In this document: one piece after another, positions 33,722-40,134 of the stretch
How the letters are laid out: every line of letters begins with the position of its first letter
How positions within the stretch are numbered: position 1 is the first letter of the stretch
DNA from: an uncultured Spirochaetaceae bacterium
GTDB lineage: Bacteria > Spirochaetota > Spirochaetia > Sphaerochaetales > Sphaerochaetaceae
Length of the DNA stretch: 40,209 nt
Reading direction: 5' to 3'
Assembly: GCA_944389055.1 (NCBI GenBank)
Contig: CALXKY010000003.1
Location: forward strand, 1 to 40,209
Position numbers and translations under genes: made by a program
Notes under the pieces: generated by a model
Database searches by the model: none
Told to the model about the DNA's origin: nothing
What the model saw: only the letters and a program-made list of their open reading frames with translations

Positions 33722-35161
33722 ATGAAAGGGGTTTCTTCTTTTGTCAGATTGTCATGCCTGAAGATCAGGGACTTCAAGAATGTGGAGTATGGTGAAGTAT
33801 CTCTAGGCAGGAACCGCAGATCAGATGCTGATATCCTTGGTATTTATGGACAGAATGGCTCCGGAAAGACAGCATTGATTGATGTTCTGGGTCTGCTTTC
33901 TTTTCTTCTCTGCGGGCGGAGGATACCTTCAAAGTTTTCCGATTGTATCAGAGCAGGGAGCCAGTCAGCAGAACTTGAATACCATTTCAATGCTGAGCTG
34001 AATGGTGTTGCATACAGAATCCAGTATATTGTGGACATTGTTTCCGCGGCTGATGAATCAGCTTCATCCAATACTTTAGACAGTCCTGAAAAGAAGCAGC
34101 ATGGCAGGTTGTCTGTCCGACGTGAGCAGCTGAAGGCTTCCTACACTGATGGAGAGGGCGGCAGTGGTAAGCTTCAGACTGTTATCGATACGGACACGGA
34201 TTCTGTTTTTGTCCCTGATTCTAAATTCCAGCTGCTGACAGGCCTCAGCAGAAAGAACAGCACGGATCTTCTCGTAGCGAAGAAGGTTTCGGAACGCGAA
34301 TCCCGGTCATTCGTGTTTTCCCCTGAGCTGCTTAAGGTATTCAGGGAAAACAGCTCTGGATTGAGCAGCGCGGAATACAGCTATCTGCATGATATGATTG
34401 AGCGCCTTGTTCAGTATGGGAACGCCGAATTATTCGTAATCAACACGGCAAATACCGGATTGATCAGCCTTGATTTCCTTCCTGTCGCATTCAGCTATGA
34501 GAATGAAGCTGCGGGAAAGATGTTCGGCAATACTGCAATCATGATTGGAGGAATAACAGTTGTTCCTGAACCTGTATTCCATGATATAAGCCTCATCATA
34601 GATAGTATGAATATCGTGCTCCAGCAGATAATTCCAGGGCTTACCATCAGTATCCGTGATTACGGGACCCAGACCATGAATGATGGCCATGATGGTCGGC
34701 GTATTGAGCTTATGTCCCTCCGTGGCAGTACGGAGATACCGCTTCAGTATGAATCCGAGGGCATAAAGAAGATCATCTCGATACTCCAGCTCCTCATTGT
34801 TGTCTATAACAAGAAATCAATTACAGTTGCAGTCGATGAACTGGATTCAGGTATTTTCGAGTATCTGCTTGGTGAGATCCTTAAGATTATCGCAGAGCAG
34901 GGAAAGGGACAGCTCATCTTTACCTCGCATAACCTGCGTCCGCTTGAGACCCTTGATAAGGATTCAATTGTCTTTACAACAGTCAATCCGTCCAACAGAT
35001 ATGTGCGCATGACCTATGTAATGGCAAACAACAATCTGCGTGATTTCTATTATCGGGATATAATCCTCGGCGGAACACAGAGAGAAACGCTCTATGATTT
35101 CACTGACAATGCAAGGATTGGACTTGCTTTCAGAAAGGCTGGTGATGGCTGCACAACGTAA
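33722..35161 (+). CDS. AAA15-type ABC/SMC-like ATPase of a two-gene defence-like module
   Basis: This is a 479-residue ATPase of the COG1106/AAA15 (OLD-like) type. It opens with VRLSCLKIRDFKNVEYGEVSL (a RecF-like N-terminus), Walker A GIYGQNGSGKTALID (40-54), a long helical/coiled insertion (about 110-340), a signature-like ESEGIKK (344-350), Walker B TVAVDELDSG (368-377) and the H-switch LIFTSHNLRPLE (398-409). Such ATPases occur with a nuclease or Toprim partner in abortive-infection and restriction-like systems (OLD, AbiL, PARIS, RloAB). The downstream gene overlaps by 17 bases and encodes a Toprim-like protein, so the two very likely form one system. I cannot assign it to a named type from sequence alone. 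Codon use is more A+T-rich than in the housekeeping genes upstream. Confidence 0.82.
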   Translation: MKGVSSFVRLSCLKIRDFKNVEYGEVSLGRNRRSDADILGIYGQNGSGKTALIDVLGLLSFLLCGRRIPSKFSDCIRAGSQSAELEYHFNAELNGVAYRIQYIVDIVSAADESASSNTLDSPEKKQHGRLSVRREQLKASYTDGEGGSGKLQTVIDTDTDSVFVPDSKFQLLTGLSRKNSTDLLVAKKVSERESRSFVFSPELLKVFRENSSGLSSAEYSYLHDMIERLVQYGNAELFVINTANTGLISLDFLPVAFSYENEAAGKMFGNTAIMIGGITVVPEPVFHDISLIIDSMNIVLQQIIPGLTISIRDYGTQTMNDGHDGRRIELMSLRGSTEIPLQYESEGIKKIISILQLLIVVYNKKSITVAVDELDSGIFEYLLGEILKIIAEQGKGQLIFTSHNLRPLETLDKDSIVFTTVNPSNRYVRMTYVMANNNLRDFYYRDIILGGTQRETLYDFTDNARIGLAFRKAGDGCTT

Positions 35162-35873
35162 GAAAGCATTGATTTTCCTTGTTGAGGGAATAACAGATCA
35201 GATCTCTCTTGAACAGTATTTCAGCCGATTTCTTGCTGGATATATATCAAGGTATCATGTGTTCTGGGGTGATATAACAAGCTCTAAGGAAACCAGTGCG
35301 CAGAATATTGTCATCAGTGTTTCCGAGGCTGTCAGGAAAGTAATCAGGACATATAGGCTTAAACGGAGTGATATTGCCCTTGCAGTGCAGATCTGCGATC
35401 TTGATGGGGCTTTTATCCCAGATGAATGCATTTGCTTCGACGATGAAGCGGAGAAGCCTATCTATGATACGAGATGTATCCGTACATATGATGTAGATGG
35501 TATGATCCAGCGTAACCATGATAAGCGGGCAAAGCTGCATAAGCTGATGAATACGGGGACGATACTGAAAGACATTCCTTATCGTCTATATTATATGGCA
35601 AGCAATCTTGAGCATGTGCTTTATGATAAACCCAATGCACTGCCTGATGAAAAACGCGGACTTGCCGATTGTTTCTCCAGAAGATTCGATGAGAAAGCAA
35701 TGGATGATTTCCTTCGATTCATCTGCTGCAGCGGGTTTTCCGTACATGGCGGATACAGGGAATCGTGGAAGTTTGCCGAGACGGGATGCAACTCACTTGG
35801 ACGATATACTAATCTGAATCTCTTCTTCGAGAATTTCGGAGATGGCACGGATCTGACAGGTTGCTACAGCTGA
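35145..35873 (+). CDS. Toprim-like effector protein paired with the AAA ATPase
   Basis: This is a 242-residue protein starting MAAQRKKALIFLVEGITDQI: the strand-Glu motif FLVEG (Glu14) is the first Toprim acidic position. The DxD motif is in AVQICDLDGAFIP (80-92; Asp85 and Asp87). Later conserved-looking blocks are YRLYYMASNLEHVLY (146-160) and GGYRESWKFAE (202-212). This arrangement is seen in small proteins encoded beside AAA ATPases in putative anti-phage modules; a metal-dependent nuclease acting on DNA or RNA is the likely role (inference). The start could also be 35094, but 35145 gives the typical N-terminus; it lies within the 3' end of the ATPase gene (coupled translation). Confidence 0.75.
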   Translation: MAAQRKKALIFLVEGITDQISLEQYFSRFLAGYISRYHVFWGDITSSKETSAQNIVISVSEAVRKVIRTYRLKRSDIALAVQICDLDGAFIPDECICFDDEAEKPIYDTRCIRTYDVDGMIQRNHDKRAKLHKLMNTGTILKDIPYRLYYMASNLEHVLYDKPNALPDEKRGLADCFSRRFDEKAMDDFLRFICCSGFSVHGGYRESWKFAETGCNSLGRYTNLNLFFENFGDGTDLTGCYS

Positions 35874-36051: not shown

Positions 36052-36981
36052 TCAACTGCTTGAATCTGAATACTTTTCCATGAACTTTCTTACTGTCTCC
36101 TCGCTTGCCGTACCACCTCTAGCACCTTTGATTGTAATTGACCTGTTCGCTGCTCCTATAGCAAATTCAGCGGCTTCTTTTATTTTCCACTTTTTGGAAA
36201 GTCCATAAAGAAATGCAGCATTGAAGGTATCACCAGCTCCATTTGTATCTACTGGTTTAATGTCAAAGGCTGGTATTATATAATCATCCAGTTTCGTTAT
36301 TACGCGGCAGCCATCTTTACCTAGCGTAATTACTATAATCTGCACACCACATGTGAAAAAATATTCAAGTAGTTTTTTTTCATTCCCAAAATCATCACAA
36401 TTTGCTTTGTACCCAAACTTGTTGAAGAAAATTACCGTTGATTGTTCAGCTATGCGCTTTGCATTTTCATCAGGAAAGCTTCCTTCTACATCAATAGCGA
36501 ATTTTGCACCATGCGCAGCAAAATCAGCAAAAAGATGCAGATAGTCAGGAAAGAGAGATTCATTCCATCCTGCAAGGTATATGAAATCAGCGTTCCTGAA
36601 CATCTCAATCTGTTTCTCAGATAATGGATTTGCAGGTTTTGGCTGTTTTACATATAGAATTGTCCTTTCATGCTCACTGCATATAATCAGGCACTTCGAA
36701 TCATTTACCCCATCAACTCTTGAAACATAGTCAATGCAAACTCCAGATTTTTTCAGATCATTCAGAAGGAAATCATTTGTACTGCTTTTGCTTAGTACAT
36801 CATAGAATGCGGCTTTTCCTCCGAGAGCAGAAAAAACGCATGCTGCATTGGACACGCTTCCACCAGGAACGGATTCTCCTTGCAGTATTACAGCTTTTGA
36901 TCCTTCCTCTGGCCAGGATTCAACTGAATAATATTCATCCATATGAAGGATACTTACAAAAACTGAATATTTTTCTTTCAT
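36052..36981 (-). CDS. PfkB-family carbohydrate/nucleoside kinase
   Basis: This is a 309-residue ribokinase-fold kinase. PfkB signature 1 region: VPGGSVSNAACVFSALGGKAAF (38-59). Signature 2: DTNGAGDTFNAAFLYGL (245-261), with the catalytic base Asp251. The sequence between (ILYVKQPKPANPLSEKQIE; IYLAGWNES) is not specific enough to name the substrate; ribose, a nucleoside or a related pentose is plausible. ATG 36981 is chosen for its AAGGCGG ribosome binding site; the frame opens at 37020, overlapping the preceding stop. It is the last gene of a leftward cluster with two ADP-ribosylglycohydrolases, the same pairing as in the E. coli yegTUV locus (YegU hydrolase, YegV kinase). Confidence 0.85.
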   Translation of the reverse strand: MKEKYSVFVSILHMDEYYSVESWPEEGSKAVILQGESVPGGSVSNAACVFSALGGKAAFYDVLSKSSTNDFLLNDLKKSGVCIDYVSRVDGVNDSKCLIICSEHERTILYVKQPKPANPLSEKQIEMFRNADFIYLAGWNESLFPDYLHLFADFAAHGAKFAIDVEGSFPDENAKRIAEQSTVIFFNKFGYKANCDDFGNEKKLLEYFFTCGVQIIVITLGKDGCRVITKLDDYIIPAFDIKPVDTNGAGDTFNAAFLYGLSKKWKIKEAAEFAIGAANRSITIKGARGGTASEETVRKFMEKYSDSSS

Positions 36982-37003
36982 CTTTTTCCGCCTTTTGTGA
37001 TAT

Positions 37004-38047
37004 TCAGCATGTGGAATCATAAATCATGTTTGCCATTTTCCTGAAATCAATCCATTTGTTAGTTTCTTGCAATGTATTGATATGATACTCGATATTTTCG
37101 ATTTCATTTGCCCCTCTCAGAGATCCTACAATTGAAGCTGCCATAATTGCTGTTGTATCACAGTCGTTTCCGCTGTTTATAGCTAAATAGATGGTTCTCA
37201 TTATACTGCTGTCTGTAGCGGCATATCCAAATGCCGAAGGGACTGCTTCATTTGCATTAAGACCAGTTCCTATAAGATCCGTCATTTCTGTAATGCAGCC
37301 CTCGAAATCATCAGAGTATTTCCTGCCAATTGATATTGCGAGTTCCATCCTCTTTTCTACGCTGGCTCCAGCGGATGGTTTTGCGATATTCAGTGCTTTC
37401 TCATAACCGATTCTTGCACCATATAATCCAGCTTCTAGTACAGAATCCATTGTAGCGTTGTTGCAGAATGCAGCTGCAACAGCGGCAGCAACAGCTGTTC
37501 CTCCGGAAAGGGCAATTGGATTATCGTGAGAAATATGGCACATAACAAGCGCATCATCGATTGCTTTATCAATATTCCCCTGATTGAACAAACCAACAAT
37601 CCAGGCTTTCATTCCAGCCCCATTTGTTGCTGTCTTGTTCTCGCAGAAAAGATAATCACGTGATTTATCATATGGTGTCCCTTCGATTTTCGCTATGCTT
37701 TTTCGTGTGGATGGACCTCCATACTTTTCATAGAAAATTTTGGTATCGTCACCATTCTTCCATTTTAGGATTGCCTCGGTTGAGTTTTCTTTTGTTATCC
37801 TGCCATTGTCTCTCAAAAAATAAATTGCTGAAATATAGGAAATGGAGAAGTCGTCTGTGACGGCAGCACGAGGCATTCCCTTTGCAATGGAATCATCCAG
37901 GGGAGTCATATAATCATATACGAAATCACCGTGTCCGAAATCTTTCTTAATAAGATATACTGGTCTTGTTTCCAAAGGACATCCCATTGCATCTCCAATA
38001 GCAGCTGATACAAGGCAACCTAGTATTCTGTCATATCTTTTATCCAT
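37004..38047 (-). CDS. ADP-ribosylglycohydrolase (DraG/ARH) family protein, copy 2
   Basis: This is a 347-residue protein with the all-helical DraG/ARH fold: start helix RILGCLVSAAIGDAMGCPLE (7-26), first metal motif VTDDFSIS (63-70; Thr64-Asp65-Asp66), NGAGMKAWIVGLFNQGN, SHDNPIALSGGTAVAAAVAAA and the second metal motif NSGNDCDTTA (291-300). All expected binuclear Mg/Mn ligands are kept, so it should be active. Family members remove ADP-ribose from modified proteins or cleave small N-glycosides. It is clearly a paralogue of the neighbouring gene. ATG 38047 is preferred: AAAGGAGG lies 9 bases upstream; it begins one base after the stop of copy 1. Confidence 0.88.
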   Translation of the reverse strand: MDKRYDRILGCLVSAAIGDAMGCPLETRPVYLIKKDFGHGDFVYDYMTPLDDSIAKGMPRAAVTDDFSISYISAIYFLRDNGRITKENSTEAILKWKNGDDTKIFYEKYGGPSTRKSIAKIEGTPYDKSRDYLFCENKTATNGAGMKAWIVGLFNQGNIDKAIDDALVMCHISHDNPIALSGGTAVAAAVAAAFCNNATMDSVLEAGLYGARIGYEKALNIAKPSAGASVEKRMELAISIGRKYSDDFEGCITEMTDLIGTGLNANEAVPSAFGYAATDSSIMRTIYLAINSGNDCDTTAIMAASIVGSLRGANEIENIEYHINTLQETNKWIDFRKMANMIYDSTC

Positions 38048-38048
38048 A

Positions 38049-39101
38049 CTACTCAACCTCCTTTATGTAATTCGCAATCTTTTCAGCCATAGCACGTAAA
38101 TTGAAATTGTTGACTTTATCTATTTTCTCTATGTAACAATCAGGAAAATTCTCCGAATTGCTGAGAGCTCCGGTTATGTACCCTGTCATACATGCAACAG
38201 TATCTGTATCATCACCACCGTTAACCCCCATAAGAACGGAATCCTTGATTCTTCCTTCGCATGCGGCAATATGACCAAAGACAGCAGGGATCGCTTCATA
38301 TGCAAAAAGGCCTCCTCCGATTATTTCAGATATAGCTCTCATTGCTTTATCAAATTGATTCCTGTATTCTGCCCCGATCTTTACAGCAAGCTTGATTTTC
38401 TTCTCAACATTTCCACCTGCAACTGGAGCGGCAGTTGTCAGAGCTTTCCTGTATCCTTCTGCAGCTCCGTATATTCCTGCTTCAATCGTGTCATTATAAG
38501 TTGCGCCCGGGCTCATTGCGGCAGCTGTTGCAGCCGCGATAGCACATCCTGCAGACAGGGCTATGGTATTATTGTGTGTTGGGGTACAGAAGATGATTGC
38601 TTCATCAATTGCTCTGTCTACATTACCAGGATTGAGTAGCCCTATGATTCCTGCTTTCATACCAGCACCGTTGGTTGCTCTGCTATTGTTGCATAATAAC
38701 TGATCTTCAATTATTTCAAGGATATTTGTTCTTTCGACTTGTTTCTCTTCATGCATTAGTGCTGATATGGCTTTTTTGGTTGTTGGACCTATATATCGTG
38801 TGTATTCCGGATGTCCGAACCACCTTATCAGAGACTTCTCGGCAAGCTCTTTTGTGGGACGGCTGCCTGCACTCAGTATGTCTTCTGCAGAATAATACGC
38901 AATTGAGAAGTCATCTGTGACAAGGCCTGCAGGATTTCCATGTGCGAGATTATCATCAGGTGGTGGTATCAGGTCAGTTACATAACCATTGAATCTCTGG
39001 ATGATGTGATCTGTGGACCGCTGTTCGGTGACAGCGCCCATTGCATCTCCAGTCGCTGCGGCTAATAGTGCATTCAGGATTTTTTCTTCTACTGACGGCA
39101 T
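38049..39101 (-). CDS. ADP-ribosylglycohydrolase (DraG/ARH) family protein, copy 1
   Basis: This is a 350-residue paralogue of the downstream gene: ILNALLAAATGDAMGAVTE (8-26), VTDDFSIAYYS (61-71; Thr62-Asp63-Asp64), NGAGMKAGIIGLLNPGN, NTIALSAGCAIAAATAAA and NGGDDTDTVACMTG (294-307). It keeps the full metal-ligand set and has the canonical GGDDTDT. The start is ATG 39101 (AAGGAG 5-10 bases upstream), with a GTG at 39107 as alternative. It is the first gene of the hydrolase-hydrolase-kinase set; 136 bases separate it from the sirtuin gene, where a weak promoter might lie (TTGGTC and TAGATA 18 bp apart on the minus strand). Confidence 0.88.
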   Translation of the reverse strand: MPSVEEKILNALLAAATGDAMGAVTEQRSTDHIIQRFNGYVTDLIPPPDDNLAHGNPAGLVTDDFSIAYYSAEDILSAGSRPTKELAEKSLIRWFGHPEYTRYIGPTTKKAISALMHEEKQVERTNILEIIEDQLLCNNSRATNGAGMKAGIIGLLNPGNVDRAIDEAIIFCTPTHNNTIALSAGCAIAAATAAAMSPGATYNDTIEAGIYGAAEGYRKALTTAAPVAGGNVEKKIKLAVKIGAEYRNQFDKAMRAISEIIGGGLFAYEAIPAVFGHIAACEGRIKDSVLMGVNGGDDTDTVACMTGYITGALSNSENFPDCYIEKIDKVNNFNLRAMAEKIANYIKEVE

Positions 39102-39237
39102 ATTCACTCCTTGTAATTTATCTATCTATTCAAACCATAGAAGACCAATCAGGGGTGGTAAAGTATGCACTTTTTTGTGGGTAGGCTCTTTTATGATACT
39201 AGTATATTTTAATTGTAACAGTTTTTTGAATCGATTA

Positions 39238-40134
39238 TTATAATAGGTCTTTTAATATCTGGTTGATGTCTTCTCCGAAAATATATGCTTTGTCTGCTAT
39301 ATTCTGGTTAGTTATATTCGGGTATACGGAATTGATTCTGATCAACTGTGCATTTTCAAATGCTTCTACATAGTTTTCAAAAGGATACCTGATTATATTT
39401 GGAAGACGGAATCCGCAGCCAATCTCCAGAAATACAATTTTCTTATTTTTTATGGCTGAGATTTTCTTTTGGAATTGATCTCGGTTTAGGTAAGTCTCTG
39501 GTTCTGATACAGATACGGTCTTTGTCCGGAAATGATTCGGGACAAGAAAATCTCCACAGCGGCTGCATTTCGGGATATTAGCTTCTGTCAGCTGTATTCC
39601 TGAATCAATCTTAATAAAGATTTCATTTATCAGATCATATGATTGATAACAGGCATTATGAGTACAGGGAAACCTGCATTGTAGGTATCTGTATGTTCCC
39701 AGCGGACTATAAATCTGCTGTGAGGTGAAACCGGATTTCTCTAATTGCATATCTGAATTTGTAGTGATTGCTAGCCAGTCTTTTTCTCCTACAAGTTTGT
39801 GTAAATTAAGATGAGCTTCTGTTGGTTGCCTGTCAAAACAGGCATATTTTATGAGTGTTGCCCAGAAAAACCAGTATTCATTGATATTATCAGGCCTTAT
39901 TTCACTGTATTTATCAATAAGTTCATCTATTGTCAGGAAATTTGAGTTATCCTGAAAATCATGGAACCATTTCTTTGATAATTTCTTGCTGAAGAAATCA
40001 ATACCGGAAGCGCTGTTTATTCCGGATCCGGTTCCGATGACAATAACTTCTGCTTCCTGGATAGCTTCTTTTGCTTTCTTTATCCTTATTTGATAATCCT
40101 TAGCTAATGGTATGCTGTTTGCTGAATAAAATGG
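39238..40134 (-). CDS. SirTM-like SIR2 family protein, 5' end lost
   Basis: An open frame of about 298 codons with no ATG, GTG or TTG near its beginning (first ATG is at 39750, well inside the domain). Counting from the CCA codon at 40134: NAD-binding VIVIGTGSGINSASGIDFF (about 30-48), ITTNSDMQLEKSGF (about 123-136), zinc Cys153/Cys157 (LQCRFPC) and Cys190/Cys193 (KCSRC), and a C-terminal FLEIGCGFRLPNIIRYPFE. This pattern matches the SirTM class of sirtuins, which ADP-ribosylate proteins and in which the deacetylase His is replaced by Gln; here the segment reads YSPLGTYRY, with Leu in that position. Most of the domain is intact, so only a few N-terminal codons seem to be missing. At 40133 the sequence turns into what looks like an insertion-sequence end. 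Confidence 0.75.
   Translation of the reverse strand, partial: PFYSANSIPLAKDYQIRIKKAKEAIQEAEVIVIGTGSGINSASGIDFFSKKLSKKWFHDFQDNSNFLTIDELIDKYSEIRPDNINEYWFFWATLIKYACFDRQPTEAHLNLHKLVGEKDWLAITTNSDMQLEKSGFTSQQIYSPLGTYRYLQCRFPCTHNACYQSYDLINEIFIKIDSGIQLTEANIPKCSRCGDFLVPNHFRTKTVSVSEPETYLNRDQFQKKISAIKNKKIVFLEIGCGFRLPNIIRYPFENYVEAFENAQLIRINSVYPNITNQNIADKAYIFGEDINQILKDLL

Follow-up and report, generated by a model that had tools for sequence, protein, structure and literature searches.

The window, by which we mean the whole stretch of 40,209 nucleotides that was analysed, belongs, as contig C3, to a genome bin of 174 contigs with a completeness of 87.7%. At its right end lies a SirTM-like sirtuin gene truncated at its 5′ end (39238..40134, minus strand), of which 298 codons are left, with no usable start codon in the contig. 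The frame has its stop at 39238 and is open to 40140; the frame and coordinates given in an earlier note on this DNA are correct, and lie on the minus strand. Residues are numbered here on the 298-residue translation of 39241–40134, in which the first in-frame start is Met129, preceded by no ATG, GTG, or TTG.

Downstream and on the same strand, after a gap of 130 bases, follow two genes for ADP-ribosylglycohydrolase family proteins, the first at 38049..39107 (PF03747, 1.8e-44) and the second, 43% identical to it, at 37004..38056 (PF03747, 3.8e-42), and then a PfkB-family kinase gene at 36052..37020, also on the minus strand (PF00294, 4.2e-43). The G+C content drops over 36–40 kb, from mostly 50–58% to 36–43%, and because of this low G+C the segment carrying the sirtuin was probably imported; the tandem hydrolase genes and the kinase (36052–39107) are on the same low-G+C stretch. 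The nearest plasmid relatives of the two hydrolases (about 40%) adjoin kinase, transporter, and GntR-regulator genes. Similar hydrolase genes occur on one Salmonella plasmid and one Yersinia plasmid, accompanied there by a kinase and a regulator of the GntR type, and by analogy we read the hydrolase–hydrolase–kinase trio as a separate sugar/nucleoside locus. A functional link between the sirtuin and the hydrolases is unsupported: an ADP-ribosylglycohydrolase gene neighbours the sirtuin in 0/80, 0/48, and 0/10 of the relative loci (the 48 being viewed with about 1.5 kb of flank).

The neighbour usually found beside a SirTM is a macrodomain gene, present nearby in 71/80, 37/48, and 5/10 of these loci. 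For the window copy, such a gene is seen neither adjacent to it nor in its genome bin. No zinc-macrodomain gene lies downstream of the sirtuin in the window, and a zinc-macrodomain search gave 0 matches in the 87.7% complete genome against 5/5 control genomes, which is suggestive only; the upstream side of the sirtuin, where a macrodomain gene could have stood, was not found in the bin. The genome holds one sirtuin match. PADLOC, used for an anti-phage reading of the locus, gave no match for the sirtuin, the two hydrolases, or the kinase. Elsewhere in the window, 33722–35873 holds an AAA ATPase gene, which PADLOC matches to AbiLi (7.6e-25) and, less strongly, to AriA, followed by an overlapping frame of 259 residues with no family match; the two may form a defence locus.

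The insertion element and the lost start codon

The apparent 5′ end of the sirtuin frame is the edge of a mobile element and not a start codon, a truncation that the earlier note missed. The 77 bases from 40133 to the contig end (40133..40209, plus strand) are the left end of an ISL3-type insertion element, which cuts the sirtuin gene and within which the contig ends. Contigs C95 and C102 of this genome end in the same bases, beside different flanking sequences, and the element end is identical in all three copies. In a same-genus genome the matching end is 97% identical and marks the edge of an element that encodes a DDE_Tnp_ISL3 transposase (9.1e-55) and has terminal inverted repeats. That the element is mobile in the genome of the window is shown by two of its ends, on C95 and C106 (loci L077 and L194), which both adjoin the 8-base sequence TAATAAAA, as would be expected for a target duplication. 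By eye, the flank on C95 resembles a tRNA gene.

Within the element the sirtuin frame hits a stop after about three codons, and no start precedes Met129, which places the original start codon beyond the element. The missing flank was sought at the right ends of the element in the bin (on C69 and C106), neither of which is followed by the expected 8-base duplication, AATAAAAT. Judged from the nearest relatives, the sequence suggests that only a few N-terminal residues are missing. The insertion looks recent, because the element end is identical in its three genome copies, and the divergence described below looks old. Because the element has removed the start codon, this copy of the sirtuin is probably no longer made in the present genome. 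One terminator-like hairpin was found within the gene, in line with the 0.8 expected by chance.

The SirTM fold and the altered active site

The best solved relatives by sequence are the Streptococcus pyogenes SirTM, SpySirTM (5a3a, E 7.8e-23), and Fusarium Mfs1 (8rsn, E 1.5e-15), with no other strong match; Pfam gave no family at E 0.1, and the NCBIfam deacylase matches are weak and far under the cut-off (Sir2/CobB, 6.7e-10). The predicted structure has a mean pLDDT of 85.4 and a pTM of 0.85, and its closest fold is that of 5a3a (Z 29.8, 277 residues aligned, rmsd 2.9), followed by 8rsn (Z 27.8) and then human SIRT5 (Z 20.6), these scores being a re-comparison of Foldseek matches rather than an independent search. 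By sequence and by predicted model alike the fold is thus nearest to SpySirTM, as in the SirTM class. The SirTM-like identity proposed earlier is supported by the sequence matches, and the fold match is consistent with it.

At the center of the active site, codon CTG at 39700..39702 (minus strand) encodes Leu145, at the site of Gln137 in SpySirTM and of the catalytic histidine in a classical sirtuin. Leu145 aligns with Gln137 free of gaps, and the segment YSPLGTYRY falls onto the QG segments of both 5a3a and 8rsn. The profile of 141 relatives scores the window copy at 239.8 bits, with a high posterior across the catalytic site. The spacing from the catalytic asparagine (Asn126) to the site is 19 residues and gap-free, which rules out a glutamine or histidine being placed there by another alignment. 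At this spacing QG occurs in 134 of the 141 relatives and EG in three, with four giving no fit, although the pattern can accommodate no more than two of the three Glu rows, so that one or more of the EG hits must be a chance match in another part of a row. In the alignment column itself there are 138 glutamines, three glutamates, and neither leucine nor histidine among the 141, and a further 17/17 rows carry glutamine. The leucine is, by alignment, private to the window copy among all relatives reached, and the substitution is, on the same basis, real and unusual.

The window copy therefore reads LG in place of the QG of SirTM proteins and the HG, with its catalytic histidine, of the classical deacylases (classes I–IV and U). 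The claim of neither histidine nor glutamine at this position is borne out by the sequence alignment, with which the fold match is consistent. According to Rack et al. (2015; PMC4518038), Gln137 of SpySirTM is absolutely conserved and contacts the 3′-OH of the nicotinamide ribose as well as Arg192; mutants of Asn118, Gln137, or Arg192 have dramatically reduced activity, and Gln137His is inactive. On the strength of these Gln137 mutants, the further suggestion that the protein is catalytically altered is likely to be right. At the title and abstract level, full-text literature searches gave no paper on a SirTM with leucine here or on an inactive SirTM.

Much of the remaining site is kept. Asn126-Ser-Asp128 (in TTNSD; 39751..39759, minus strand) corresponds to the catalytic Asn118 and the nicotinamide-site Asp120 of SpySirTM, Asn268 to the adenosine-site Asn258, and the four zinc cysteines are present as Cys153, Cys157, Cys190, and Cys193; fold, zinc site, and these three residues are all as in SpySirTM (5a3a/5a3b/5a3c). 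The differences from SpySirTM are LG for QG, one extra residue before the equivalent of Arg192, and GCGFRLP for the class M pyrophosphate motif, which the same source names as GVGx[NT]TP. Only if that one-residue insertion (NHFR against NLR) is accepted does Arg203 match Arg192; the ungapped phmmer alignment places a phenylalanine there. The altered pyrophosphate loop (GCGFRLPN; 39397..39420, minus strand) had escaped the earlier note, which held that the NAD-binding and four zinc-cysteine positions remain: this holds for the cysteines and, owing to the loop, only in part for the NAD site. Among other sirtuins, the SirTM half of the fungal macrodomain–SirTM fusion Mfs1 matches and has the segment P-x-G-x-Y-x-YLQC in common with the window copy, while Mfs1 differs in having glutamine and the fused macrodomain. 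The classical Sir2/CobB deacylases belong to the same superfamily; unlike them, the window copy has SirTM-type motifs and no catalytic histidine. In the same collection there are glutamine-type SirTMs that lack two or more of the four zinc cysteines, namely L019–L024 (L020 in part excepted; same family) and L155 and L162 (Bacteroidota).

Relatives and divergence

The alignment took every frame above 40 bits from the collected loci, giving 146 rows, five of which come from the window, whole or in part. Kept were 30 loci per genome search and 80 of 264 from the search of genome contigs, which used one peptide pattern, so that the sample is biased to loops of the ELGVGF type. The 17 extra rows comprise 16 from new loci of one related family (in which 80/274 genomes match) and one other. 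Among the relatives kept, the best identity to the window copy is 35–37%, in genome contigs. No closer relative was found in the first scan of genome contigs, in plasmids (best 34%), in phages (one record, at 24%), in viral contigs, or in 139 genomes of the family, 392 of the phylum, and 274 of one related family.

Seven of the 26 near-invariant positions (those at least 95% conserved in the others) are broken in the window copy, where the median among 105 non-redundant rows is 0; only the glutamate-type partners discussed below are comparable, with 10, 7, and 6 of the 26. In a tree of 85 rows, where the median is 0.4, its end branch measures 2.99 changes per column; in a smaller tree of 35 rows, built with more care and having a median of 0.78, it measures 3.77. 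This is about 5 to 7 times the median, though sparse sampling can also lengthen such a branch. The tree places it, with weak support, among SirTMs of Clostridium, Oceanirhabdus, Treponema, Verrucomicrobia, and Desulfovibrionaceae. Named loci from Treponemataceae and Brachyspira carry the same motifs as loci of the same class and phylum as the window, and on this ground its genome is taken to be that of a spirochaete. In their IFAPQG and LxPN-R segments the copies from Clostridium mediterraneense, an uncultured Clostridium, Oceanirhabdus, and a Treponema bin (L084, L089, L088, and L085) are the most similar to it, and in the best tree they group with it only tentatively, at a support of 60/0; all four differ in having glutamine, FNTP, and an adjacent macrodomain gene.

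Tandem pairs of SirTM-like genes occur on Bacillota plasmids, from Paenibacillus, Mesobacillus, and Lactiplantibacillus (L057:1680–3491, L058:4998–6859, and L064:2130–4314), each a glutamine-type gene followed by a glutamate-type gene in which the Arg192 and pyrophosphate positions are altered. In 3/3 pairs the glutamate-type gene lies directly behind its partner. In the Paenibacillus and Mesobacillus plasmids an HD-domain protein, a nicotinate phosphoribosyltransferase, and an isochorismatase-family hydrolase come next, and the locus looks like an NAD-salvage operon. Like the window copy, the second genes have lost the glutamine and the NTP loop, and many near-invariant positions are broken; unlike it, they have glutamate at the site and glutamate or threonine at the Arg192 position. 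The window copy does not belong with these paralogues: its residue is leucine, and a common clade with the Paenibacillus glutamate-type partner is rejected (AU p 1e-5, to be taken with caution on such long branches).

When neutral drift was simulated, 10% of runs kept an open frame at a divergence of 0.05 changes per site and 1.2% did so at 0.1; whatever the divergence tried, no more than 0.3% of runs combined an open frame with at least 7/26 changes. The simulation starts from the present sequence, is substitution-only, ignoring indels and mutation bias, and assumes that all seven changes fell within one neutral phase. Because of the long end branch, the open frame, and this low joint chance, the divergence is, as far as the sequence can tell, probably more than plain decay, and we infer that selection was still acting on the protein when its catalytic site changed, although a later date is possible for one or two among the seven changes, the leucine included. 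As to the test proposed earlier, by which homologues with glutamine would show this copy to be simply mutated, the homologues do have glutamine and none of those reached has leucine, which bears the test out by half; "simply mutated", in turn, probably does not fit an open frame with 7/26 near-invariant positions changed.

Readings of the altered sirtuin

Since two defining motifs, QG and GVGx[NT]TP, read differently here, the window copy is derived from the SirTM class but should not be filed as a SirTM. The reading to which we incline, somewhat above an even chance, is a divergent class M derivative that kept features of the NAD site, lost or strongly weakened ADP-ribosyl transfer, and was recently broken by the insertion. 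A class M sirtuin gene, on the probably imported low-G+C segment, would have diverged far, keeping the fold, the zinc site, and most NAD contacts, and losing both a portion of the pyrophosphate loop and the glutamine that holds the 3′-OH of the nicotinamide ribose. The altered site, presumably fixed under selection, would have made it a weak or dead ADP-ribosyltransferase, that is, an NAD- or ADP-ribose-binding pseudo-SirTM rather than an active SirTM; in the present genome the ISL3-type element has removed its start codon. Of this account, the homology, the predicted fold, the substitutions, the open frame, and the element edge are seen in the data, whereas selection on the altered site and its effect on activity are inferred.

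Decay alone, in which an ordinary imported SirTM was inactivated, by the element or earlier, and drifted, so that the leucine and the loop are random hits, is a serious but lesser possibility. The start codon is indeed gone, with the contig running into the element; leucine is a single base from glutamine (CAG to CTG), a change that could even be later than the insertion, and is shared by no relative; and no zinc-macrodomain gene was found in this genome bin. Drift fits poorly, however, with a run of 298 codons that is free of stops although its end branch is about 3 to 3.8 changes per column long, with the joint chance of at most 0.3% under neutrality, and with an insertion that looks recent beside a divergence that looks old. 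An active enzyme of other chemistry, in which Leu145 shapes the pocket for NAD hydrolysis or for a different ADP-ribosylation acceptor, helped by Asn126, Asp128, and perhaps Arg203, seems quite unlikely to us. Asn126, Asp128, Asn268, and the four cysteines are kept, the frame seems maintained under selection in the light of the simulation, other class M derivatives are also changed at this site (glutamate in the tandem partners), and residues invisible to a reading of the sequence may compensate for Leu145; yet the Gln137 mutants of SpySirTM, histidine included, are inactive or nearly so (PMC4518038), the pyrophosphate loop is altered too, and the glutamate proteins adjoin a glutamine partner, while this genome shows no such partner, with its one sirtuin match, although the upstream side of the gene is missing. 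An error of sequencing, binning, or assembly at the codon might be imagined for contig sequence from a bin of 174 contigs and 87.7% completeness, but is very improbable: one error cannot explain several independent near-invariant positions that differ, and the two loop changes (codons CGT CTT against the usual Asn-Thr) need two base changes each.

Rather doubtful, though a little less so than a new chemistry, is that the copy stands for an unsampled subfamily derived from class M, with the catalytic glutamine and the NTP loop replaced and the protein kept by selection, either to sense NAD or ADP-ribose or to regulate a glutamine-type SirTM as its partner subunit. The glutamate-type tandem partners on Bacillota plasmids may regulate their glutamine-type SirTMs in this way. 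FAM118A/B may serve, by analogy, as a precedent for partner subunits: according to PMC12700824, these two sirtuin paralogues must meet to process NAD, but both keep an active-site histidine and asparagine.

The divergent class M derivative that we favour is, in the window, a single broken gene, which limits its value; most likely it is an isolated case, disabled or put to another use, and not a new class of enzyme. More promising among what these searches brought up are the tandem pairs on plasmids of Bacillota, where the second gene has glutamate at this site in 3/3 pairs seen. If true, a derivative lacking the glutamine and held under selection would be a natural test of the SirTM fold without ADP-ribosyl transfer.
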